A DNA stretch of 40,284 bases from a virus: positions 1 to 40,284 of IMG/VR virus record IMGVR_UViG_3300010935_000123; one strand, written 5' to 3'. The notes beneath the pieces are model-generated. The model was not told the origin of the DNA, searched no databases, and saw nothing but the letters and a program-made list of their open reading frames with translations. How positions within the stretch are numbered: the stretch's first letter is position 1; every line of letters starts with the position of its first letter. Shown in pieces: positions 3,714 through 15,846 of the stretch. The position numbers and the translations under genes were made by a program.

Positions 3714-5435
3714 ATGGATGTTAAACTAGCTCCCCTAGAAGAACTGAAAGAACTACAGCAGGGATTATATACCCTAGCAGTTAGAGTATCTAAAATAGAG
3801 AAAAAGAGGCTATTGCCTGCTTCAGCCCATACAGAAGAGAATAAAACAGAAGCCTTCGAGCTGAACAACAAACAGCAAGAAGCGTTAAACAAGGCTATCA
3901 TAGGTGACAGCTTTGTATTAACGGGAGCCGCTGGGACAGGCAAGACACTTACTGTCAACCGAATGGCACGGGCACTGCTATCGGAAGAATGCGGACTTGG
4001 AATGGCGACATTCCGTGACCCTAAGGGCAATACTTCTTGCCAAACCACTAAACCTGCTATTGCATTCGTAGCCTTCACTAACAGAGCCGTAAATAACATG
4101 GTGTCTAATCTTAGAGAATTCTCCCCTGATTTAGTGGATGAGCTAGAGGGAAATTTCATGAGCATCCATAAATTGCTGGAGTACGCTCCAGAGTACTACG
4201 TAAACGAAGACGGCAAAGACACCATGAGATTCTCTCCTAAGAGAGATGCGTTAAATCGTCTGCCTATTAAGACGCTTGTAATTGAAGAGGCGTCTATGCT
4301 AGGACTTGGGCTATGGAAGGAACTATATGCAGCCCTAGAGCCTAATGTTCAAATCATTCTGCTTGGTGACCTTAATCAGTTACCACCAGTATTTGGGGAC
4401 AGTATCTTAAACTACGGGCTACTACAACTACCAGTAATAGAGCTCACCCATGTGTATCGGCAGGCTTTAGACAGTCCAATAATCCGACAAGCACATAACC
4501 TATTGAAGGGTAAGGGATTAGAGACAGACGGGGATAACTTTATAATAGCTAGTGGTAAAAACACCCAGCCCATTGGGGCTGATAGAATGGGGATAGGAGC
4601 CGTAGGGCTACTAGCTAAGCTATTTGACAAGGGCGAATACGACCCTATGGAGGATGTGGTACTATCACCCTTCAATAAACATGGCAGTGGGACTACTAGA
4701 CTAAACCTGCTAATAACCACCTTTTTGGATGACCGTATGAGGGCTAATGGAAACCCCCGTGAAGTCTATGAGATAAAAGCCTCCATGCTTACCCATTACT
4801 TTGCAGTAGGGGATTTGGTCTATGATGACCAGTCTAAGTCCACAGGTGTAATATCTTCTATACACTCAAACGGTAACTATTATGGAAGGACGCCACAAAA
4901 GCCTTCTATACATTTGAACCGCTTTGGGATACTAGATACGCAAGACACCCAAGATGAACTAGCTACTTTTGACATTACTGCTAACTATGATGCGTTGGAT
5001 ATAAGGGCATTAGAGGGAACAGAGGCAGAGCAAAAGATATTAGCTGCCAGCCATTGCATCAGTATATTGCTAGATGATGGCACGGAAGTTGAAGCTTCTA
5101 CCGTAGGAGATGTGAACGCCCTATCCTTTGGGTATGCCATAACTTGTCATAAGGCACAAGGCTGTGAATGGCGCAAGGTTTTTGTAGTGTTGCATAATAG
5201 CCACACACTTGTGAACCGTGAATGGCTATACACGGCTATAACACGGGCTAAAGAGTCTTGTGTTATAATATGCAAGCAAGATACTCTAAGTAAAATGTCA
5301 GCTAGGCAGCGCATCAAGGGGGATAGTCTAGAAGCCAAGATTCATGGTTTTAATTATAAACTAGAAGCCAAGATGGACATAGCTTTTAAGCAGGGAACTC
5401 CGTTGCCTACAGTTAGCTTTGTAAAGGAGAGCTAG
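3714..5435 (+). CDS. RecD/Dda-like SF1B DNA helicase, 573 aa
   Basis: This is an ATP-driven DNA helicase. After a helical N-terminal extension (1-45) come a Q-motif-like NNKQQEAL (51-58), Walker A GAAGTGKT (71-78), motif II VIEEAS (189-194), motif III GDLNQLPPV (218-226), and a YRQ motif near 248. Motif V-like FGYAITCHKAQGCEW and motif VI LYTAITRAK (near 520) complete the core. This order is typical of RecD2 and phage Dda helicases. The length suits the family with a short accessory domain. It probably works with the polymerase and recombination genes of the same arm. The N-terminal extension could contact the coiled-coil protein encoded just upstream. Confidence 0.93.
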   Translation: MDVKLAPLEELKELQQGLYTLAVRVSKIEKKRLLPASAHTEENKTEAFELNNKQQEALNKAIIGDSFVLTGAAGTGKTLTVNRMARALLSEECGLGMATFRDPKGNTSCQTTKPAIAFVAFTNRAVNNMVSNLREFSPDLVDELEGNFMSIHKLLEYAPEYYVNEDGKDTMRFSPKRDALNRLPIKTLVIEEASMLGLGLWKELYAALEPNVQIILLGDLNQLPPVFGDSILNYGLLQLPVIELTHVYRQALDSPIIRQAHNLLKGKGLETDGDNFIIASGKNTQPIGADRMGIGAVGLLAKLFDKGEYDPMEDVVLSPFNKHGSGTTRLNLLITTFLDDRMRANGNPREVYEIKASMLTHYFAVGDLVYDDQSKSTGVISSIHSNGNYYGRTPQKPSIHLNRFGILDTQDTQDELATFDITANYDALDIRALEGTEAEQKILAASHCISILLDDGTEVEASTVGDVNALSFGYAITCHKAQGCEWRKVFVVLHNSHTLVNREWLYTAITRAKESCVIICKQDTLSKMSARQRIKGDSLEAKIHGFNYKLEAKMDIAFKQGTPLPTVSFVKES

Positions 5436-6228: not shown

Positions 6229-6537
6229 ATGGAAGAGTCACTACAACAGAATCTAGACAGGCTACGCACCACCTTAGAGCATTCAGAGATGGGAGAAGTG
6301 GAAACCCACTTACTTGTTTTACAAGAGCAGTTAAAGCAAGCCCCACACTTGGTAGATATGCTGCTACCAGAGGATATTGGACTATTAGTAAGTGCAGAGC
6401 GTAAAAGATGTGCTACGGATATGCTAACCGCTAGCATGCCAAAGGCACGGGTCAAAAGAGCGCCTGCTAAAGCTAAGACTAAACCTATGACAAGACAAGA
6501 AGTATTAAAAGAACTGGAAGGCTTAGATGACTTCTAA
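6229..6537 (+). CDS. Small protein, 102 aa, basic region and LDDF tail
   Basis: AGGAGG lies upstream of the ATG. The N-terminal 70 residues look helical. A strongly basic segment follows (KARVKRAPAKAKTK, about 75-88), then a short helix ending ELEGLDDF. The acidic, Phe-terminated tail resembles that of the preceding protein and of the late protein at 39571-40188. The gene overlaps the nuclease gene by 11 bases. It is probably nucleic-acid-associated, by inference only. Confidence 0.65.
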   Translation: MEESLQQNLDRLRTTLEHSEMGEVETHLLVLQEQLKQAPHLVDMLLPEDIGLLVSAERKRCATDMLTASMPKARVKRAPAKAKTKPMTRQEVLKELEGLDDF

Positions 6538-7468
6538 GGGCTTTACAGCTATTGACTCAGCTAAAGATTTGGTACTGTCTTATTCATCACTAGAAACCTT
6601 ACACTCCTGTCCACGTAAGTTTGAGCTATACAAGGTACACCCAATGGATGCGCCAAGGGAGACAAGCCCTGCACTAAGCCAAGGTTCCGCTGTAGGTAAC
6701 GGCTATGCCGCGCATCTAATGGGACTAGGCGAGGAGCAAACACGCTTCCAGACTTGGCTGAACTATTACCCCCCACTAGAGGATAATGTGCGCAGTATGA
6801 CTAAGGCGCAAGTTATAGTACAAGCCTTGATAGATACACCAATGAAAAAGGAAGGTACAGAAGACCCTATGGATTGGGAACTAGCCTATTTCGATGGTAT
6901 CCCTACGGCAGAACTTAGCTTTTGCATTAGATTGAATGAAACCATGGTATATGTAGGCTATCTTGATGCCGTCCTATACTCACCCTCTACTGGCAATTAC
7001 CGCCCACTGGAGCTGAAAACATCCAGCCTACCAGAGCAAAACTTAGAGGTGAATTTCTCAAACTCAGCGCAGGGCTTGGCTTATGCCCTTGTACTAGATA
7101 CTATCACAGGAGCACCACAAGAGACCTTTAACATACACTACCGTGTAGCACAAGTGCATAGAACTAAAGAGTTGCAATTTCGCCCTACTATACATGACTT
7201 TTTCTTTACTAAGACATTAGTAGATAGGTTAGAGTGGCTAATAGGCTTAAAAATGGACGTAGAGCGCATTCAAACAATGATAGATTTGGAAGTCTTTCCT
7301 AAGCATGGCAGTAGTTGCCTAGCTTGGCAGAGACCTTGCAGTTTCTACGGCTTGTGTGGGTTAACACGTAAAGATACCCCTAGGAAAGAAGATATAAAGG
7401 AGTATCAGTTCTATTGGGAATTGGATACATTGATTGAACAGGCACTAGCACTTTCAGGAGAGATATAA
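6527..7468 (+). CDS. Cas4/RecB-like PD-(D/E)XK nuclease, 313 aa
   Basis: The start motif SYSSLETLHSCPRKF (18-32) is typical of RecB/AddB/Cas4 nucleases. E129, D147 (GYLDAVLY) and E162-L-K164 form the PD-(D/E)XK core, and Q182-x3-Y186 is the usual QxxxY motif. Cys28 together with Cys264, Cys271 and Cys277 gives the one-plus-three pattern that binds an Fe-S cluster in Cas4/AddB-type enzymes. A 5'-to-3' or single-strand exonuclease role beside the Sak4-like recombinase is likely. No CRISPR locus is present, so this is a replication-recombination nuclease. Confidence 0.87.
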   Translation: MTSKGFTAIDSAKDLVLSYSSLETLHSCPRKFELYKVHPMDAPRETSPALSQGSAVGNGYAAHLMGLGEEQTRFQTWLNYYPPLEDNVRSMTKAQVIVQALIDTPMKKEGTEDPMDWELAYFDGIPTAELSFCIRLNETMVYVGYLDAVLYSPSTGNYRPLELKTSSLPEQNLEVNFSNSAQGLAYALVLDTITGAPQETFNIHYRVAQVHRTKELQFRPTIHDFFFTKTLVDRLEWLIGLKMDVERIQTMIDLEVFPKHGSSCLAWQRPCSFYGLCGLTRKDTPRKEDIKEYQFYWELDTLIEQALALSGEI

Positions 7469-7470
7469 AA

Positions 7471-8331
7471 ATGACGACATTAGCAGAAATAGCGCAGGCT
7501 AGGAAAGTAGCCCTAAGTTCTTTTGACTTAAAGAGAATTCTAATATATGCACAGCCTAAGGCTGGAAAGACATTATTAGCGGGTTCAGTAGCCAAAGTAG
7601 CAAACATAAAAAGAGTATTTTGGTTTGATTTAGAGAACGGGGCTGCTACGTTGTTAAACCCTGAACTAGGGCTTACTCAGGCAGAGATGAAAAAGGTTAC
7701 CTTATATAGTATCCCCGATACGCGTGAATCCCCTATAGGCATTGAAACTTGCTTAAAAGTAGTGAGTTCTCAAAAACCCTCCTATATTTGCGATACCCAT
7801 GGCAGGGTAAATTGTAGAGACTGCATGAAGGCTCCTGCCCCAAAACCTACGGTAGAGCTTCCAGAGATAGAGGGGAATACTATATTCCCTGGACTAGCTG
7901 CCCTAACCGCCTCAGATTGCGTGGTATTTGATAGCTTATCGCAGGTTGGGGACAGTGCATTTGAGGTAGGGAGTAGGGTGACAGCAGGTGATAAGAGTGC
8001 CTATGCTAAGTATGCAGAACAGGGTAGGATGCTATCAGATTTACTAGGTATGATACAGCAAATGCGTACCAATGTAATCTGCATTACCCATGTAACTACT
8101 AATGAAGCTGAAGATACCAAAAAGGAAACTGTTATCCCATTATGTGGGACTAGGAACTTTAGTCTAAAGGTAGCCAAGTACTTTTCTACTGTTATCTATT
8201 TATCTGTAGAGGTGAAAAAGTTCAAGGCAGGTAGTTCCCCTACCTACAAGCTGAACGTAATAGCAGGAGATAGGCTAGGGGTTAAACTAGAAGCTTCTAA
8301 TTCACCTAGTATGCTAGACATATTTAACTAA
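7471..8331 (+). CDS. Sak4-like RecA-family ATPase with zinc-type insertion, 286 aa
   Basis: The protein shows Walker A QPKAGKT (28-34), WFDLENG (51-57), Walker B CVVFDS (150-155), and an ITHVTTNE motif near 207-214. These fit the phage Sak4/AAA_24 recombinase group, which promotes single-strand annealing or strand exchange. Between them lies an insertion with Cys107, His110, Cys115 and Cys118 (C-x2-H-x4-C-x2-C), a likely zinc site. The next gene encodes an SSB-like protein, the usual partner, and the preceding gene a nuclease, so the three form a recombination module. The start is supported by AGGAGA. Confidence 0.87.
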   Translation: MTTLAEIAQARKVALSSFDLKRILIYAQPKAGKTLLAGSVAKVANIKRVFWFDLENGAATLLNPELGLTQAEMKKVTLYSIPDTRESPIGIETCLKVVSSQKPSYICDTHGRVNCRDCMKAPAPKPTVELPEIEGNTIFPGLAALTASDCVVFDSLSQVGDSAFEVGSRVTAGDKSAYAKYAEQGRMLSDLLGMIQQMRTNVICITHVTTNEAEDTKKETVIPLCGTRNFSLKVAKYFSTVIYLSVEVKKFKAGSSPTYKLNVIAGDRLGVKLEASNSPSMLDIFN

Positions 8332-8426: not shown

Positions 8427-8885
8427 ATGAGCACAAGCCTAATGGACACACTACTAGAAGAATCTTTTGATGAGGTAGAAATCGCCCCGGAATTCGTAGA
8501 ATTCCCAAATGGGGAATATATCCTGGAGATTGTGAAGGCAGAGCCTAAAGAGTACGAGGCTAAGGGTAAACGGGAAGCGGGTGTGAGAGTATCGGTAACT
8601 TATAAGGCTATTGAAACCTTGGAGCTTTCTTTGCCTAATCAAAGCCCTGTAGCAGTAGGTTCACTGCAAAGTGAAAGCTTTAACCTAACCGCACAGGGGC
8701 TGCCTTACTTTAAGAGATACATCACTAACGTATTTGGTGATGCGGAAGGCGTTAGCTTAGGCGAGTCTATCCGTGCCTTAGAAGGTATGCAAATACGCTG
8801 CCTAGTAAGAACTAAGAATAGCGTAAATCCTACTACTGGAGATGCTTCATCCTTTATGAATACATCACGCCAAGAGCAAGTATAA
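8427..8885 (+). CDS. Single-strand DNA-binding-like protein (DUF669-type), 152 aa
   Basis: An acidic N-terminus is followed by a beta-rich domain (FPNGEYILEIVKAEPKEY, RVSVTYKAIETLEL) and a C-terminal piece with MQIRCLVRTK. This overall pattern is that of phage DUF669-like proteins that act as SSBs beside Sak/RecA-like ATPases. AAAAGGAG precedes the start. Its own leader and the hairpin that follows (8904-8947) suggest expression separate from the upstream genes. The assignment rests on context as much as on sequence. Confidence 0.65.
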   Translation: MSTSLMDTLLEESFDEVEIAPEFVEFPNGEYILEIVKAEPKEYEAKGKREAGVRVSVTYKAIETLELSLPNQSPVAVGSLQSESFNLTAQGLPYFKRYITNVFGDAEGVSLGESIRALEGMQIRCLVRTKNSVNPTTGDASSFMNTSRQEQV

Positions 8886-8947: not shown

Positions 8948-9020
8948 CATTACTTAAAGAAATTGAAGTAACAACTGGATGCGTGTAGTGCGCATTCTAG
9001 TAAAAAAAAGGAGATACACC

Positions 9021-9356
9021 ATGACTAAGTTGATGAACTACACACCCCACACGATAAACGTGCAAACCATAGACGGTTCAGTTACTAGCTACAAGAGTGA
9101 CGGGATAGCGAGAGTAAGCACAGTATGTACCCCAGTTGGGGACATAGACGGTATTCCTCTACAGGTAACACGTCTAGGAGAGGTCTGCGGTCTTCCTCCA
9201 GAGGAAGACGGAGTATTTATTATTGTATCAGGTATGGTGCTAGAAGCCGCCGACAGGAGGGATTTAGTAGCCCCAGCTACTGGACCAGATGACCAGTGTA
9301 TTAGAGATGGGGGTGGTAGAATAGTTGCCATCACTAAATTTAACACACGCTACTAA
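9021..9356 (+). CDS. Conserved phage-type 'TPHxI' protein, 111 aa
   Basis: I start the protein at ATG 9021, after AAAGGAG with normal spacing; an in-frame ATG at 8979 has no ribosome site. The sequence begins MTKLMNYTPHTINV and contains GIARVSTVCTPVG, IIVSGMVLEAA and a Gly/Asp-rich end. Small proteins with the same N-TPH-I, VSGMVL pattern are widespread in phages, but I know no established function for them. It heads the small accessory gene block and is probably a soluble beta-rich protein. Confidence 0.7.
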   Translation: MTKLMNYTPHTINVQTIDGSVTSYKSDGIARVSTVCTPVGDIDGIPLQVTRLGEVCGLPPEEDGVFIIVSGMVLEAADRRDLVAPATGPDDQCIRDGGGRIVAITKFNTRY

Positions 9357-9376
9357 GTTACAAAGGAGGCTTTATT

Positions 9377-9592
9377 ATGGAAATGAATACAGAATTATGC
9401 CTAGACGTAGCCGTGAAGTTTGACTGTTTCCCTGGACAGAGAGAGACACGCACAGACCCTGGATTTGAGGCTAGTATTGACATTGTGTCAGTATATGTGG
9501 GGGGTATTGATATTAGGGCAAGTCTGCCTGAAGATAAAATAGACTTACTAAAGATAGATGTTATGGCGCGTCTGGATGAACTTAAAGGATAG
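9377..9592 (+). CDS. Hypothetical protein, 71 aa
   Basis: A strong GGAGG (9364-9368) precedes the ATG. The acidic protein has a likely beta-hairpin core (IDIVSVYVGGIDIRASL) and a C-terminal helix. No known family is recognised. It belongs to the small-gene block after the SSB-like gene. Confidence 0.65.
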   Translation: MEMNTELCLDVAVKFDCFPGQRETRTDPGFEASIDIVSVYVGGIDIRASLPEDKIDLLKIDVMARLDELKG

Positions 9593-9622
9593 AGAATAGA
9601 GGGTATCTACTAGGAGGGTATA

Positions 9623-10084
9623 GTGAAAACATACCAAGACTTAAAAAACAAAATTAAAGAAATTGTAGCTGTGAATATAAAAGGCTTTGATAGCAACTGG
9701 GTATTAAGAGATTTTGCTCGTAAACAAGCCCTAATCAATATTACACTGATTAGACCCTATACAGATAAATATGAGTTGATTGTTAGATTTTTAGTTACTG
9801 GAGAAGAGTCAATACGAAAAGAAGTTATAAGGGCGGCTGCGGTTACTTATGATACTGCTTATACTGCTGAGGCTGCTTATATTGCTACTTATGCTGATGC
9901 CGCTTATGCAGCTTCTGCTTATACTAATTCTGCTGCTACTGCTGCTGCTGATGCTGCTCAGGCTGATGCTGCTTCTGGCTACACAAAAGCAATACAAATG
10001 CTTGATAGCATGGTAAATGAATACTTAGGCTTATTGCCGCAAGAACCGCTAGTAGCCATGGGTTACAGAGAAAAAGTGAATTAG
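9623..10084 (+). CDS. Ala/Tyr-rich low-complexity protein, 153 aa, GTG start
   Basis: The gene starts at GTG 9623 after AGGAGG. Residues about 1-70 are ordinary mixed sequence. Residues about 70-120 are a repeat-like run of Ala with spaced Tyr, Thr and Asp (AYTAEAAYIATYADAAYAASAY). It is encoded almost only by GCT for Ala, giving a GCT triplet-rich stretch at about 9830-9980. The rest of the window uses GCA, GCC and GCT more evenly. The run is probably a helix or structural spacer, perhaps grown by triplet expansion. Function unknown. Confidence 0.65.
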   Translation: MKTYQDLKNKIKEIVAVNIKGFDSNWVLRDFARKQALINITLIRPYTDKYELIVRFLVTGEESIRKEVIRAAAVTYDTAYTAEAAYIATYADAAYAASAYTNSAATAAADAAQADAASGYTKAIQMLDSMVNEYLGLLPQEPLVAMGYREKVN

Positions 10085-10096
10085 AAGGAGAATGAT

Positions 10097-10294
10097 ATGA
10101 GTGAGCAGACTGTAGATATGTTAGTGTGTAGGATAAAGCGGTTAGAAGCCCTTGTGAATGATTTACGCGAAGCCTTTATAGAACACAATGAAGATGATGA
10201 TGGCTACACTTGCCTAGCGTGCCACGCATCCGTGGATAACCCAGATATAGACTTTGTGCATGATACAGGATGCATTACGGAGCGTACAGTATGA
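10097..10294 (+). CDS. Small putative zinc-binding protein, 65 aa
   Basis: AAGGAG precedes the ATG. An N-terminal helix (VCRIKRLEALVNDLREAF) is followed by YTCLACHASV and HDTGC, giving a C-x2-C-H ... H-x3-C set suited to zinc binding. The gene overlaps the next by ATGA at 10291-10294. It may be an adaptor or nucleic-acid binder; the family is not recognised. Confidence 0.6.
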   Translation: MSEQTVDMLVCRIKRLEALVNDLREAFIEHNEDDDGYTCLACHASVDNPDIDFVHDTGCITERTV

Positions 10295-10614
10295 GTGCCG
10301 TAAAAAAAGCATATACGGAATGGAAGCTAGGGAGAAATATACTTGCTGGAACATGCTATGCAGAGGATTTTGCAAGGGCTGAATACGTTATCAAACACGC
10401 ATTCGCAGCAGGCTATGAAATGGGGATGAACACCACAAGCCCACAGTATAAAGTAGGTGATGAAGTGGAAGCATTGAACGCCCGACTAGAGGATATAGGT
10501 GTGTTTGATAATGCCAAAGATGCTTGGGTAAATTGTAGCGTCTTGGAAGACCAGCTAAAAGCCAAGGATGAAGAAATCAAGCAGTTGAAGGCACATATAT
10601 GTGCAATAACATAA
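10291..10614 (+). CDS. Hypothetical protein, 107 aa
   Basis: I choose ATG 10291, which overlaps the preceding TGA, over the upstream in-frame ATG 10270 inside the previous gene. The N-terminal half is helical and aromatic. The C-terminal half looks coiled-coil (LEDQLKAKDEEIKQLKAH). No recognised family. It overlaps the next gene by 16 bases. Confidence 0.6.
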   Translation: MSAVKKAYTEWKLGRNILAGTCYAEDFARAEYVIKHAFAAGYEMGMNTTSPQYKVGDEVEALNARLEDIGVFDNAKDAWVNCSVLEDQLKAKDEEIKQLKAHICAIT

Positions 10615-10913
10615 CAACAGAAGCACTAAAGCAGATTGCGGAATGGGCTTATCCAAAGGCACGCCTCATTAAGCAATGTGTTACTTTTCCAGATGAAATA
10701 TTAGTGTACTTTTCTGAAACCTCATGTACTACAATAGACACTGATGATTTATTACCAGAGGTAGAGCTTCACCTTATCCGTTGGTATAGGGAGTGGTTGA
10801 GTAAGCACTATATCAGTAAAGCAGGGTACGATTACAAAGGCACTTTCTTTGATGCCATAGAATCAAACACCACGCTACTAGAAGCAATCTATCGTGATTG
10901 TATTAAAGGCTAA
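10599..10913 (+). CDS. Hypothetical protein, 104 aa
   Basis: This is a soluble acidic protein with many aromatic residues (HLIRWYREWLSKHYISKAGYDYKG) and no motif I recognise. It starts inside the 3' end of the preceding gene, which suggests coupling. It is one of the small accessory genes of the 9.0-12.0 kb block. Confidence 0.6.
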   Translation: MCNNITTEALKQIAEWAYPKARLIKQCVTFPDEILVYFSETSCTTIDTDDLLPEVELHLIRWYREWLSKHYISKAGYDYKGTFFDAIESNTTLLEAIYRDCIKG

Positions 10914-10917
10914 TGCT

Positions 10918-11109
10918 ATGAGTTTTACTGCCGAAGAATCTAAAATGTTAGAACTTACAAAAGGTAATGCATTTATTGATAATATAGTAAAGCAAGGATG
11001 GATGTCGGCAAAGCAACACGCTGTAGTAGTTAATATTTATAAGCAAGTAATACTGGCTGATGATATGGACTATGGGTACGACGCTTATGCTGAACAAGAA
11101 ATAGAATAG
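10918..11109 (+). CDS. Hypothetical protein, 63 aa
   Basis: ATG 10918 follows AAAGG (10905-10909); an in-frame GTG at 10894 lies inside the previous gene. The protein is helical with an acidic, Tyr/Asp-rich C-terminus (DDMDYGYDAYAEQEIE). The segment KQGWMSAKQHAVVVNIYKQ resembles short helical segments common in small phage proteins. No function can be assigned. Confidence 0.6.
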   Translation: MSFTAEESKMLELTKGNAFIDNIVKQGWMSAKQHAVVVNIYKQVILADDMDYGYDAYAEQEIE

Positions 11110-11126
11110 AAGGAGCAAGACAAGAC

Positions 11127-11225
11127 ATGCATAACAAAACATATTTACCTGGAACTACCTACTTAGTAGTTGCCGTTGTAATAGAACTAATTATAGCTGC
11201 CCTATTACTATACCTATATGCCTAG
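11127..11225 (+). CDS. Membrane micropeptide, 32 aa
   Basis: The ORF runs from ATG 11127 to TAG 11225. A short polar N-terminus (MHNKTYLPGTT) precedes one strong membrane helix (YLVVAVVIELIIAALLLYL). AAGGAG lies about eleven bases upstream, somewhat far. The stop overlaps the start of the next ORF. Dense packing between genes on the same strand supports coding. It may act at the host membrane, but this is inference. Confidence 0.5.
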   Translation: MHNKTYLPGTTYLVVAVVIELIIAALLLYLYA

Positions 11226-11385
11226 GCTTAGGTATCAGGTTATATACCAAGGGCTTGAAGCGAACTTCAAGACACAAGAAGCCGCATTGCTATACCTATG
11301 GGAGCTAGGCACTCCACGCACAGCTACCCTAAGAGATGTAACAGATAGCATAAAATACAAGATACCTTATTTTATATGGAGGTAA
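11218..11385 (+). CDS. Small basic protein, 55 aa
   Basis: It starts at ATG 11218, overlapping the end of the upstream micropeptide by eight bases, and stops at TAA 11385. The sequence is basic, with a central helix (KTQEAALLYLWELGTPRTATLRD) reminiscent of small DNA-binding or 'EAALLYLWELG' type phage peptides. I recognise no family. Coupled translation with both neighbours is likely. Confidence 0.5.
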   Translation: MPRLRYQVIYQGLEANFKTQEAALLYLWELGTPRTATLRDVTDSIKYKIPYFIWR

Positions 11386-11389
11386 TAAT

Positions 11390-11494
11390 ATGTACCGTAT
11401 AGTATTTTTAATGTGGTTGCTAGGCTATATTATAATATCGTTTATGGCAGACCTACAAAGAAGGTGGAGGAGATGGAGATGGATATGGAAATGA
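11390..11494 (+). CDS. Membrane micropeptide with Trp/Arg-rich tail, 34 aa
   Basis: GGAGG (11379-11383) lies seven bases before ATG 11390, and the stop is TGA 11492-11494. The peptide has one hydrophobic helix (IVFLMWLLGYIIISFM) and ends RRWRRWRWIWK, a cationic Trp-rich tail like those of membrane-active antimicrobial peptides. The next gene starts inside it in another frame. Part of the tail coincides with the ribosome site and start codons of the next gene, which also constrains the bases (GGAG/ATGGAG repeats). It may attack or modify the host membrane, or act as a small holin-like factor. This is untested inference. Confidence 0.55.
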   Translation: MYRIVFLMWLLGYIIISFMADLQRRWRRWRWIWK

Positions 11495-11826
11495 CTAAAG
11501 ACAAGTGGATGCTAGTGCATCTATCACGACCTGCTGATGCAGATTTTGGCAGAGATAAGGTATATGTAGGTAATATACTAGAAGTTTACCCAGAACTAAT
11601 AGATTACATACGAGACCATACTATGTACCCTGAAGATGCGACAGAGAACCTAGTTCTAGACGCGCATATCTTAGACTATCCTAAAATAGCCAAAGCTTTA
11701 TTAGGAGATTGTAAGTTTACCATTGTGGGCTACGTTGACAGAACCCAGCAACCAGTAGAACGTAAGGCACACATAGAAAAGCTAATGAATTCAGTACGGG
11801 AGATAGCAGATGACAACACTAATTGA
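11479..11826 (+). CDS. Hypothetical protein, 115 aa
   Basis: Four in-frame ATGs follow each other at 11473, 11479, 11485 and 11491. GGAGG at 11466-11470 best fits 11479. The start region overlaps the preceding micropeptide in another frame. The protein is acidic and soluble (KDKWMLVHLSRPADADFG, YIRDHTMYPEDATENL). No known family. It overlaps the next gene by 17 bases. Confidence 0.6.
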   Translation: MDMEMTKDKWMLVHLSRPADADFGRDKVYVGNILEVYPELIDYIRDHTMYPEDATENLVLDAHILDYPKIAKALLGDCKFTIVGYVDRTQQPVERKAHIEKLMNSVREIADDNTN

Positions 11827-12004
11827 ACCTAAATACGCAGTAAAGTTAAACTGTGTATGCTGCGGCAAGCGTAAGAAAGGTGTCTTATACAACCCAACAG
11901 TTAGCATATGTATTGACTGCATGAAAAGTCAGGTGGCTTTGCTAGAGAATATACTACCTGCCCATGGTGTACCTGTAAGAACTATTAAAGACTTAGAGGC
12001 ATGA
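11810..12004 (+). CDS. Small zinc-finger protein, 64 aa
   Basis: The sequence holds CVCCGKRKKG and, about 17 residues on, CIDC, giving a C-x2-C ... C-x2-C zinc ribbon. The N-terminus is short and the C-terminus is helical. The stop overlaps the ATG of the DNA polymerase gene (12001-12004), so expression is coupled to replication. It may be a transcription or replication accessory factor, by inference. Confidence 0.65.
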   Translation: MTTLIEPKYAVKLNCVCCGKRKKGVLYNPTVSICIDCMKSQVALLENILPAHGVPVRTIKDLEA

Positions 12005-14214
12005 AATCAGTCTTAGTACTTCACAATTCCAGAGACGCTGGCTTTATAGGTATCCTAAGGCAGATGCTTGGGAAGCTAGGCATAGACCGTGTGCTAACCT
12101 CAGATACCGCTAAGTCCACTACCGCAATCAACCTACGCGCAGGGTTATATAAAGTAGATGCGGTACTTATTGCCTGCCCTACAGCTATGGCTAACTTGGC
12201 TGGCAATGAATTAACTAGAGCAAGGTCTATTGACCCCGAGATGTGGGCAGGTAGTGTATTCGGAGGAAGGGATGGACTAGAGTATCCAACCATGTTTATA
12301 CTACCCCTGCATTATCTACACACTAAGCCTTGGGGCAGTTTTGTAATGAATCAACATCTTACAAAATTCCTTAGCCCTAGTAATATTAAACCCCTAGAAG
12401 TAGGGGGAGAATATATTGCAGTAGATGATAGCAATACAGAGGAATGCCTAGCACATCTTACAGAGTGCCTCTTGATAGCTGTAGATATTGAAACCGTAAA
12501 CCATATTACAATGGATATGGTAGGGTATTGTGGAATAAAAGCCAATGGTGATATTGTAAGCTATATCGTAACACTAGGGCTACAAGCCACTGAAGCCAAA
12601 TTTGCTTTTATTAAAGCCGCTAATCTATCTAAACCTGTAAAGGTTATGCACAACGGAACCTATGATAACCAATTTTTCGCTAGGTACCAATGCCCTGTAA
12701 ACAATTACACCCTAGACACAGAGTATTTATTCTACTCCGCCTATGCTGAACTTCCTGCATCATTAGCATTCGTGTCTGCGTTCTACAATCCCATAGCTAG
12801 ATATTGGAAACAGATGGTAGATGTTGACCGTGCTAAGTATTGCGCATTGGACTGTTACAATACTCTTATTACAGCTAAACTAATGATGGAGCAACTACCT
12901 GAATATGCGTGGGAGAATTATAAACAACTCTTTCCACTAACTACTGTAGTTCTATACTTTGCTATGCACGGTTTTAAAGTAGATGAAAAGGTTTTAGGTA
13001 AGCTAAAGGAAGATGCAGAAGTAGAGTTAGAAGCTTGCACTAAAGACTTCCATAAGATGTGTGGGGGTACAGAGGTTAACTACTCCTCTCCTAAACAGAT
13101 TAAAGCCCTATTCTATGATGTGCTAAAGGCTAGACCCGTAAAGGTAAAGGGAACCTCTGGAGGAACAGACGCCACCACACTAGCAGCCCTATCCGAACAG
13201 CATCCCCTAATAAGCCGTTTCGTAGATACATTAACTCACCTACGTAAGACAAGAAAAGCTATTAGTACTTATTATACAGCTCCTCTATATCATGGGAGAC
13301 TGTTATACTCCTATCGCATAGACGGTACAGAGACAGGGAGGCTTTCCTGCTCCAAGTCTAACTTTGGTTGGGGTAATAAGAATACTGAAAGCTACGGAGC
13401 ACAAGCCCAGAATATCCCTTCATATATGAAAGCTGCCCTTATACCAGATACTGGATACATGTTAGGAGAGAGTGATAAAAGTCAGTCTGAGGCTAGATGC
13501 GTAGCATATATTGCGAAAGAGCCACTACTCATAGATGCACTAGAGTCAGAAGATGATTTCTATTTAATCTGTGGCAAGCTATTCTTTGGTATTTCTATGG
13601 AAAAGGCTAAAAGCATACGGCAGCTTATTAAGAAAATTATACATGGTTCTAACTATTGTATGGGTGCAGAGACTTTTATCGACTCTGTAAGGAAAGACTT
13701 TGGTGTGGGTATCTTACGAGATGGGCAGCTACTACTAGACAGAAGGAAAAGTGAAACTCTAGTTACTTTTGCCGCTTATCTACTCTCCTTATATAGGCAT
13801 ACATACAACCGCTTACCTAAGTGGTATGATGAAACCAAGATGACCCTGATAACAAAGGGAGAGTTAGTCTCCCCACTAGGCTGGACTAGAAGATTCTTTG
13901 GTGACCCCTATAGTAACAATACCCTTAGAGCGGCGATTGCCCACGCCCCGCAGAACCTTAGTGTAGCAATTATTAACAAATCCCTAGTTCGTGCATTCTG
14001 GCAGTTACAAGTCCCTTCTAATGGAGCCTTTATGTTAATATGTCAAGTGCATGATAGCTTAGTTTACCAAGCAAGAATAGATAAAGCCAACTACTATAAA
14101 GAAGCCTTAAACACTATAATGGATATAGCGATACCTTTTAAGTTTAGCCCTAAACATGATATGCGGATTCCCACAGAAGGAAATCTAGGTACTTGCTGGA
14201 AAGAGTGCCACTAA
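12001..14214 (+). CDS. Family A DNA polymerase with 3'-5' exonuclease, 737 aa
   Basis: Replicative T7-type polymerase. The exonuclease domain has VDIETVNH (D162, E164), a YDNQFF motif (D222) and YCALDCYNT (D284). The polymerase domain has TETGRLS (443-449), motif A SDKSQSEAR (D492), motif B R540-x3-K544-x7-Y552, and motif C VHDSL (D685). Three usual residues differ. The position equal to E. coli Pol I F762 is His548, the Gly after the motif B Tyr is Cys553, and motif C reads HDS rather than HDE. The N-terminal 150 residues match no domain I recognise. The start overlaps the zinc-ribbon gene by ATGA. Confidence 0.93.
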   Translation: MKSVLVLHNSRDAGFIGILRQMLGKLGIDRVLTSDTAKSTTAINLRAGLYKVDAVLIACPTAMANLAGNELTRARSIDPEMWAGSVFGGRDGLEYPTMFILPLHYLHTKPWGSFVMNQHLTKFLSPSNIKPLEVGGEYIAVDDSNTEECLAHLTECLLIAVDIETVNHITMDMVGYCGIKANGDIVSYIVTLGLQATEAKFAFIKAANLSKPVKVMHNGTYDNQFFARYQCPVNNYTLDTEYLFYSAYAELPASLAFVSAFYNPIARYWKQMVDVDRAKYCALDCYNTLITAKLMMEQLPEYAWENYKQLFPLTTVVLYFAMHGFKVDEKVLGKLKEDAEVELEACTKDFHKMCGGTEVNYSSPKQIKALFYDVLKARPVKVKGTSGGTDATTLAALSEQHPLISRFVDTLTHLRKTRKAISTYYTAPLYHGRLLYSYRIDGTETGRLSCSKSNFGWGNKNTESYGAQAQNIPSYMKAALIPDTGYMLGESDKSQSEARCVAYIAKEPLLIDALESEDDFYLICGKLFFGISMEKAKSIRQLIKKIIHGSNYCMGAETFIDSVRKDFGVGILRDGQLLLDRRKSETLVTFAAYLLSLYRHTYNRLPKWYDETKMTLITKGELVSPLGWTRRFFGDPYSNNTLRAAIAHAPQNLSVAIINKSLVRAFWQLQVPSNGAFMLICQVHDSLVYQARIDKANYYKEALNTIMDIAIPFKFSPKHDMRIPTEGNLGTCWKECH

Positions 14215-14225
14215 GGAGCCTACCC

Positions 14226-15491
14226 ATGGCAAGGGAGTTTTTCAATAATTACTTTGAATATATAGGGGATACTGAAAGCCCTGCTATATTTCATAGATGG
14301 AGCATACTATCGTGTGTAGCAGCGTGCTTAGGAAGGCGTTGCCATATTCCGCTAGGTCACTACAAAATCTATCCATCTATGTACACTATGCTAGTGGGGG
14401 TTAGTGGTACAAGGAAGTCCTCCGCAATTAGTAGGGCTTCCAAAGTATTACTAGCCTCTGGCTATGCCCACCTAGCCGCAGATAAGACATCCAAGGACAA
14501 GTTTTTACTTGACCTAATGGATAAGAACCACATAGTAGATAATCTAGCGGGCTTAGAAGATATGCTGATAATGGATACAGTTGCCCATGATGCAGAGGCG
14601 TTCATTCTATCAGAAGACTTCTTAGATTTTCTAGGAGCGAACAATCTAGACTTTATTTCCTTACTAGGAAGGCTATGGGAAGTAAAGGACTCCTATGAGT
14701 ACAGGATAAAGATGGGTATATCTGCAAAGATTGAGCACCCTGTAGTTAACATATTAAGTGTTACAACACCTACGGGATTGGGCATGACGTTTCCACCAGA
14801 GATACTAGGGCAAGGATTTATGTCTAAGCTTATGCTAATATACGGAGAGCCTACAGGTAAAAGGATTAGCTTTCCAAAAGCAGTTGACCCTTCTGTTCTA
14901 AGTAAAGTTACTAAGCCAATAAAGGCTATACTAGCTAGAGGGAAAATAGACTTAGATATTAGCGCATTGGCTAGGGATACCTTAGATACTATATACCAAG
15001 CCAATATAAAATTGCCAGACCCAAGATTTGTAGCGTATGAATCTCGCCGCCATGACCACTTGCTAAAGGTAGTCATGGTTATAGCTTTACTAAGGCAAGC
15101 AGAAGTTACTCACCCCATAGTATCAGTTGACGATGTGCTAATAGCAAATACTATCCTATCCTGTGCAGAGCATCAAATGCCACTAGCTTTAGGAGAGTTT
15201 GGTAAAGGCAAGTTCTCTGATATAGGTAATGCGCTAATGGAAGCACTACATAGAACTAAGAAGCCATTAAGCCTATTAGACCTATGGAAGGTAGTGGCAC
15301 AAGACTTGGGTAGTCAAAACGAGTTAATAGCTATTTTGAGAGGGCTACAGGTATTGGATAAGATACAAGCGGTAAGCATTGAAGGGCAAGACAAGTTCTT
15401 ACCAGTTGTGAAGCACACAAAGAGGGTGGATTCTAGCTTAATAGCTACAGATTTTCTAACCCCTGAAGAAAATGTTATAGGAGGATTATAA
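14226..15491 (+). CDS. DUF3987-like P-loop protein (probable replicative helicase/primase component), 421 aa
   Basis: I start at ATG 14226 after AAGGAG; the ORF can extend to 14193 inside the polymerase gene. The N-terminal FFNNYFEYIGDTESP and IFHRWSILSCVAACLGRR are followed by a Walker A-like GVSGTRKSS (58-66). Later come an acidic LSEDFLDFLG stretch and an NILSVTTPTGL segment, as in DUF3987-type phage proteins. These usually serve as helicases or helicase/primases in phage replication. No separate DnaB or primase is present, so this is the best replicative helicase candidate. No primase motif is obvious. Confidence 0.75.
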   Translation: MAREFFNNYFEYIGDTESPAIFHRWSILSCVAACLGRRCHIPLGHYKIYPSMYTMLVGVSGTRKSSAISRASKVLLASGYAHLAADKTSKDKFLLDLMDKNHIVDNLAGLEDMLIMDTVAHDAEAFILSEDFLDFLGANNLDFISLLGRLWEVKDSYEYRIKMGISAKIEHPVVNILSVTTPTGLGMTFPPEILGQGFMSKLMLIYGEPTGKRISFPKAVDPSVLSKVTKPIKAILARGKIDLDISALARDTLDTIYQANIKLPDPRFVAYESRRHDHLLKVVMVIALLRQAEVTHPIVSVDDVLIANTILSCAEHQMPLALGEFGKGKFSDIGNALMEALHRTKKPLSLLDLWKVVAQDLGSQNELIAILRGLQVLDKIQAVSIEGQDKFLPVVKHTKRVDSSLIATDFLTPEENVIGGL

Positions 15492-15492
15492 T

Positions 15493-15846
15493 ATGGTTAG
15501 AACCTATAGAGGATTTAATCACACGCTACAGAAGGATATGTATGGCGATGTCAGTGATGATGAAAAGCAGCTAACCCTTGGGATAAAGTTTGATAAGGAT
15601 AAGTTAGACTACACGCTAGTACCTTGGGAGTCTATGGAAGATGTAGTAAAAGTCTTAGAACATGGCGCGAAGAAGTATGCTAGGGAGAACTGGAAGCTAG
15701 TCTCACCAGAAAGATATAAGAAGGCAGCAGCTAGGCATATGGTAGCTTGGTTAGGAGGTGAAGATGCAGACCCAGAATCAGGGCTACCTCATACAGCCCA
15801 TGCTATTTGTTGTATGCTATTCTATCAGCACCTAACTAAACACTAA
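15493..15846 (+). CDS. MazZ/DUF5664-like nucleotide pyrophosphohydrolase, 117 aa
   Basis: The motifs KFDKDKLDYTLVPWESMEDV, LEHGAKKYARENW, AARHMVAWLGGEDADPESGLPHTAHA match the DUF5664 family (dATP/dGTP pyrophosphohydrolase, MazG-like all-alpha fold). In cyanophage S-2L the relative MazZ makes dGMP for 2-aminoadenine DNA, but this family is common in phages without that modification. Here no PurZ-like synthetase or DatZ-like HD enzyme is present, so nucleotide-pool adjustment is the safer call. It is the last gene of the + arm, followed by the terminator. Confidence 0.82.
   Translation: MVRTYRGFNHTLQKDMYGDVSDDEKQLTLGIKFDKDKLDYTLVPWESMEDVVKVLEHGAKKYARENWKLVSPERYKKAAARHMVAWLGGEDADPESGLPHTAHAICCMLFYQHLTKH

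Follow-up and report, generated by a model that had tools for sequence, protein, structure and literature searches.

Intergenic small open reading frames (ORFs) of Enterobacteriaceae encode mainly hydrophobic, potentially transmembrane microproteins (PMC11188072), and hydrophobic peptides of de novo origin can integrate into the membrane of E. coli, where they reduce the membrane potential (PMC6550523). Two short ORFs described here, ORF1 and ORF3, share with the single-helix microproteins of phages and bacteria (PMC11188072) a length of 20–60 aa, a hydrophobic helix, a Shine–Dalgarno (SD) sequence and a position packed between longer genes, as well as little or no conservation and a liability to be missed by ordinary gene finders. 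Both are intergenic, shorter than 60 aa and provided with one predicted helix and their own translation signal, and by this analogy the general kind to which they would belong is already known. ORF3 differs from these microproteins in an unusual Trp/Arg tail, encoded by a hexamer repeat that at the same time provides ORF4, the gene that follows, with its start region. With the random-library de novo peptides Arp1–3 (PMC6550523) it shares a short hydrophobic helix, the lack of ancestry and a plausible insertion in the inner membrane, although ORF3 is natural and no sequence relation to Arp1–3 is claimed.

The window, that is, the whole stretch of DNA analyzed, is a virus record of 40,284 bases from a podovirus-like phage, with two convergent gene blocks. 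Genes for the head and for packaging lie in the minus-strand block. The plus-strand block encodes a Dda-like helicase (3714–5435), an exonuclease (6527–7468), a Sak4-like protein (7471–8331), a protein that we read as SSB-like and whose PHROG match is a family of unknown function (8427–8885), and, downstream of the ORFs considered here and leading the replication genes located there, a family A DNA polymerase (12001–14214), a primase (14193–15491) and a protein with a dATP/dGTP diphosphohydrolase N-terminal domain (15493–15846). The last of these is a 117-aa protein in which this domain stands alone (PF18909, E 8e-28); some PHROGs with the same region are labeled ‘endolysin; inhibits RNA polymerase’, probably from fused proteins. 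EBPR podovirus 3, Polaromonas phage Tiera and Pseudomonas phages 119X (Fredfastierviridae) and PaP2 share this plan of small early genes, a polymerase and then replication and nucleotide-metabolism genes, and Tiera and 119X also have convergent late genes. They differ in that their polymerases are only ∼28–32% identical to that of the window, and no homologue of ORF1–ORF3 was found in them. Closer polymerase relatives were detected in IMG/VR, comprising one contig at 78% identity (L001), in which the SSB-like protein is 72% identical to that of the window, and four at 59% (L002, L003, L004, and L014); no polymerase relative was detected in bacterial genomes.

Between the SSB-like gene and ORF1 lies a series of small plus-strand genes (8979–11109) that matches none of ∼80 related loci. 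By this comparison it is a lineage-specific accessory stretch, and since its genes match no relative the micro-ORFs are placed at the edge of a variable region. One of its products, a 153-aa protein (9623–10084), contains an Ala/Tyr-rich quasi-repetitive stretch (AYTAEAAYIATYADAAYAASAYT) and has PHROG matches to families of unknown function.

A preliminary description of this DNA had reported three overlapping or nearly touching ORFs of 32, 55, and 34 codons with plausible starts, the first and third each with one membrane helix, and all of this is borne out on the plus strand at 11127–11225 (ORF1), 11218–11385 (ORF2) and 11390–11494 (ORF3), each with an ATG start. Taking the maximum 19-residue Kyte–Doolittle mean as the helix measure, ORF1 reaches 2.76 (MHNKTYLPGTTYLVVAVVIELIIAALLLYLYA) and ORF3 2.19, while ORF2 does not exceed 0.24 and has no membrane helix. 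ORF1 is preceded by an SD-like AAGGAG (11110–11115) at the long spacing of 11, and its stop overlaps the start of ORF2 by 8 nt (ATGCCTAG; 11218–11225). No SD was found upstream of ORF2, and because ORF2 is without one of its own, its translation would probably depend on coupling to ORF1. The end of ORF2 contains the ideal SD GGAGGT (11378–11383), which lies at a spacing of 6 from ORF3, and ORF3, which begins after a gap of 4 nt, in turn overlaps the 111-codon ORF4 by ATGA, an overlap absent from the preliminary description. Among the 108 ATG ORFs of 25–60 aa on both strands of the window, an SD of at least five matches was found in five, and three of these also have a helix, namely ORF1, ORF3 and an ORF inside the major capsid gene, leaving ORF1 and ORF3 as the sole intergenic micro-ORFs in which a strong SD accompanies a membrane helix. 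The view that closely packed short ORFs, with credible signals for translation, had been overlooked is therefore supported, and the three are probably real genes, yet not one unit. Near the ORFs, neither structured RNA (z 0.14) nor an Rfam match was detected, and the count of promoters and terminators was not above that of shuffles.

ORF2 encodes a soluble protein of 55 aa with the motif FKTxxAAxLYLWELGTP and a predicted beta-beta-alpha-beta-beta arrangement, and its codon score lies within the gene range. Its counterpart in L001 is 42% identical (E 1e-13), and for more distant homologues in L014 and L002 the sequence evidence by itself is weak (E 0.046 and 0.14, respectively), but synteny supports them. 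These four proteins constitute a family, defined here by a motif resembling FxxxxxAxLYxWexGT and a length of about 55–61 aa, whose genes are found between an SSB-like gene on one side and ORF4 on the other. The structural model of ORF2 (pLDDT 73.6) resembles many small uncharacterized phage proteins (best E 0.017, TM 0.74), and fold searches with ORF2 and ORF4 gave no significant PDB match. ORF2 is, in our reading, a small soluble protein of the early region, and it is conserved. The proposal that the three ORFs form a single ‘cassette’ does not fit its distribution, since ORF2 is kept without ORF3 in L001 and without an adjoining membrane ORF in two more distant relatives. A further conserved, strongly basic protein of 58–68 aa, not noticed in the window, is encoded 3′ of the ORF2 homologue in L002 (2569–2775) and L014 (2992–3168), with the sequence NYRRSHNYxLALxYPFKVELYNRKTYRKIPLVKWNRLFR.

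The codon model places ORF1 on the gene side, with a score exceeding those of all 31 decoys. No homologue of ORF1 was found in relatives, nor any PHROG match or Pfam match above cut-off, and the same holds for ORF3, so that conservation of the reading frames in related phages, whose absence the preliminary description gave among its grounds for refutation, applies to ORF2 and, within this search, not to its two neighbors. The positional counterpart of ORF1 in L001 (5155–5247) gives a local alignment score not above that of shuffles (P 0.18–0.26); an end-anchored comparison gives P 0.017, a procedure chosen post hoc. This counterpart is the first of two overlapping helix micro-ORFs (5155–5323; 30 and 27 aa, at 5155–5247 and 5240–5323) located ahead of the L001 ORF2 homologue, and it ends in Y/F-A-stop with an 8-nt overlap, as does ORF1. 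The early regions of related phages repeatedly contain SD-bearing single-helix micro-ORFs of unrelated sequence, and 16 of 18 lie on the polymerase strand, a count made without ORF3, as an upstream extension of ORF4 was taken as the gene. In EBPR podovirus 3, an unannotated 32-aa helix micro-ORF (L008 2353–2451; MILALIEVVATVLLIFGLLVIGTILLVSRRKR) ends in SRRKR, overlaps the preceding gene by ATGA and touches the next, which encodes a Sak4-like ATPase.

At the ORF2–ORF4 junction of L001, the ORF2 stop (5490) and the ORF4 ATG (5494) are separated by three bases, leaving no room for ORF3, and the ORF4 SD sits within the end of ORF2, at a site homologous to the window SD that precedes ORF3. Relative to L001, ORF3 thus corresponds to an insertion of ∼91 bases. 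The ORF4 start of L001 aligns with window position 11491, the homologous start of the 111-aa ORF4 (11491–11826, plus strand), which is conserved in five relatives. An ORF3-like ORF before ORF4 is also absent in the relatives at 59% identity. By this comparison, within the collections searched, ORF3 is lineage-specific, although a single close relative does not establish with certainty whether it was gained in the window or lost in L001. Two candidate similarities were rejected: the ORF3 helix pattern FLMWLLGY matches six stretches in IMG/VR, all in unrelated frames, and the ORF3 helix compared with the second L001 micro-ORF (5240–5323) gives P 0.11. The codon score of ORF3 is ambiguous, falling in the zone where the two distributions overlap (6th percentile of gene segments, 84th of decoys). 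When its helix segment is shuffled, the frame remains open in 14% of cases and open with a helix in 2.9%; random sequence matched to the composition of the window gives the latter combination in 0.6%.

ORF3 ends, exactly as reported earlier, in RRWRRWRWIWK (codons 11459–11491), and with five Arg, one Lys and four Trp in 11 residues this tail has the composition of a short cationic Trp/Arg-rich peptide. Its codons lie in a purine-rich tract without C (11459–11491, plus strand) that also contains the ORF4 SD (AGGTGGAGGAG) and a stack of ATGs at 11473, 11479, 11485, and 11491, and Tandem Repeats Finder detects a (GGAGAT)4.2 repeat at 11469–11493. ORF4 starts inside AGGTGGAGGAGATGGAGATGGATATGGAAATGA. 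The repeat reads MEMDMEM in the ORF4 frame and WRWIWK in that of ORF3, where the preceding SD tract reads RRWRR. Nine of the final 12 residues of ORF3 are Arg or Trp, against at most 3 of 12 at the 73 ATGA-overlapped gene ends in relatives, and it is therefore the repeat, rather than gene overlap in general, that makes the tail; ordinary SD overlap as its sole cause was rejected, the overlapped ends in relatives being enriched mostly for Glu and Lys. In IMG/VR, RRWRRWRW was found in at least 120 stretches, in 16 of them within 15 residues of the C-terminus, with no credible helix micro-ORF among the matches listed, and no membrane micro-ORF with a Trp/Arg tail was found in relatives. The likeness to antimicrobial peptides put forward in the preliminary description is undercut by this shifted-frame reading of a repeat that holds the ORF4 SD and starts. 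As the composition is explained at the DNA level, antimicrobial selection is not needed, and a tail that is absent in L001 and has no homologue does not have the distribution of a membrane-active peptide kept by selection.

We consider it fairly probable that this locus represents the variable edge of an early/replication operon, at which the conserved ORF2 is flanked by membrane microproteins, ORF1 and ORF3, that turn over fast and have perhaps newly arisen. Both are probably translated, and ORF3 may perhaps be of de novo origin. In the proposed order of events, ORF2 would have been followed directly by ORF4 in the ancestor, as in L001, and ∼91 bases would have been inserted at this junction in the window lineage. 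The former ORF4 ribosome-binding site would now drive ORF3, while a GGAGAT repeat would have built a new ORF4 SD and start region that is at the same time the 3′ end of ORF3 and, in the ORF3 frame, would be read as the Trp/Arg tail. If made, ORF3 would be expected to reside in the inner membrane, and the positive-inside rule would put the strongly basic tail in the cytoplasm. It would most likely have an accessory action, through a membrane partner from host or phage or through the properties of the membrane itself, or else serve only to couple translation to ORF4; action as a secreted antimicrobial peptide is less likely. A role of the ORFs in host takeover or superinfection, as had been suggested, is possible but gains no support from these results; ORF1 and ORF3 have no PHROG match, and no Pfam match above cut-off, that would relate them to a superinfection-exclusion family. 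Nor do they resemble holin or lysis genes, having no family match, early/replication neighbors and no adjoining endolysin.

A more specific proposal is that ORF3 is a selected membrane-active effector, anchored by its helix and binding anionic lipid headgroups of the inner leaflet through the Trp/Arg tail, and that it would disturb the membrane of the host in takeover, superinfection exclusion or help with lysis. Its ideal SD, its helix and a strongly basic, Trp-rich tail whose Arg/Trp density far exceeds that of gene ends in relatives are consistent with such a role, as is the finding that no holin or endolysin was recognized among the window proteins scanned, but ORF3 is not conserved, the DNA repeat accounts for its tail, no like tail occurs on membrane micro-ORFs in relatives or in the listed IMG/VR RRWRRWRW stretches, and the tail would be cytoplasmic, unlike that of a secreted antimicrobial peptide. 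We regard this proposal as unlikely. A version in which ORF3 is a membrane gene at its birth, the insertion having captured the ORF4 ribosome-binding site and GGAGAT slippage having given both a replacement start region for ORF4 and a basic, membrane-active Trp/Arg tail with which the new peptide would now attack the membrane of the host, appears very doubtful.

The same junction could be taken to mean that ORF3 is a translated leader that serves solely to bring ribosomes to ORF4, since it ends in ATGA on the ORF4 start, its 3′ end contains the ORF4 SD and stacked ATGs, the homologous SD in L001 serves ORF4 directly and its codon score is ambiguous. A strong SD already lies directly before ORF4, however, making coupling unneeded, and a leader would not need a membrane helix, the combination of helix and open frame being rare in shuffles (2.9%); a role as leader only is accordingly given a low probability. 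That ambiguous codon score, together with the absence of homologues and the 14% of helix-segment shuffles that stay open, would also suit a chance open frame in an inserted spacer that is no gene at all, perhaps with ORF1 in the same position. This we judge highly improbable, because SD plus helix is nearly confined to ORF1 and ORF3 among intergenic ORFs, ORF1 outscores all decoys, and the genome is densely coding with no other gene held in the gaps. The reading as a variable operon edge with fast-turnover membrane microproteins is preferred.

ORF5, located between ORF4 and the polymerase gene (11810–12004, plus strand), encodes a zinc-ribbon-like protein of 64 aa in which the four cysteines (CxxC…CxxC) are kept in all six sequences, and ORF2, ORF4, and ORF5, which are conserved in the early region and belong to no known family, merit a systematic look. 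The tail of ORF3 illustrates that a look-alike of an antimicrobial peptide can arise where a repeat-built ribosome-binding and start region overlaps the upstream frame, which calls for caution in the mining of phages for such peptides. Together, the window and L001 provide a clean with/without pair for the entry of tiny membrane genes into compact phage operons.
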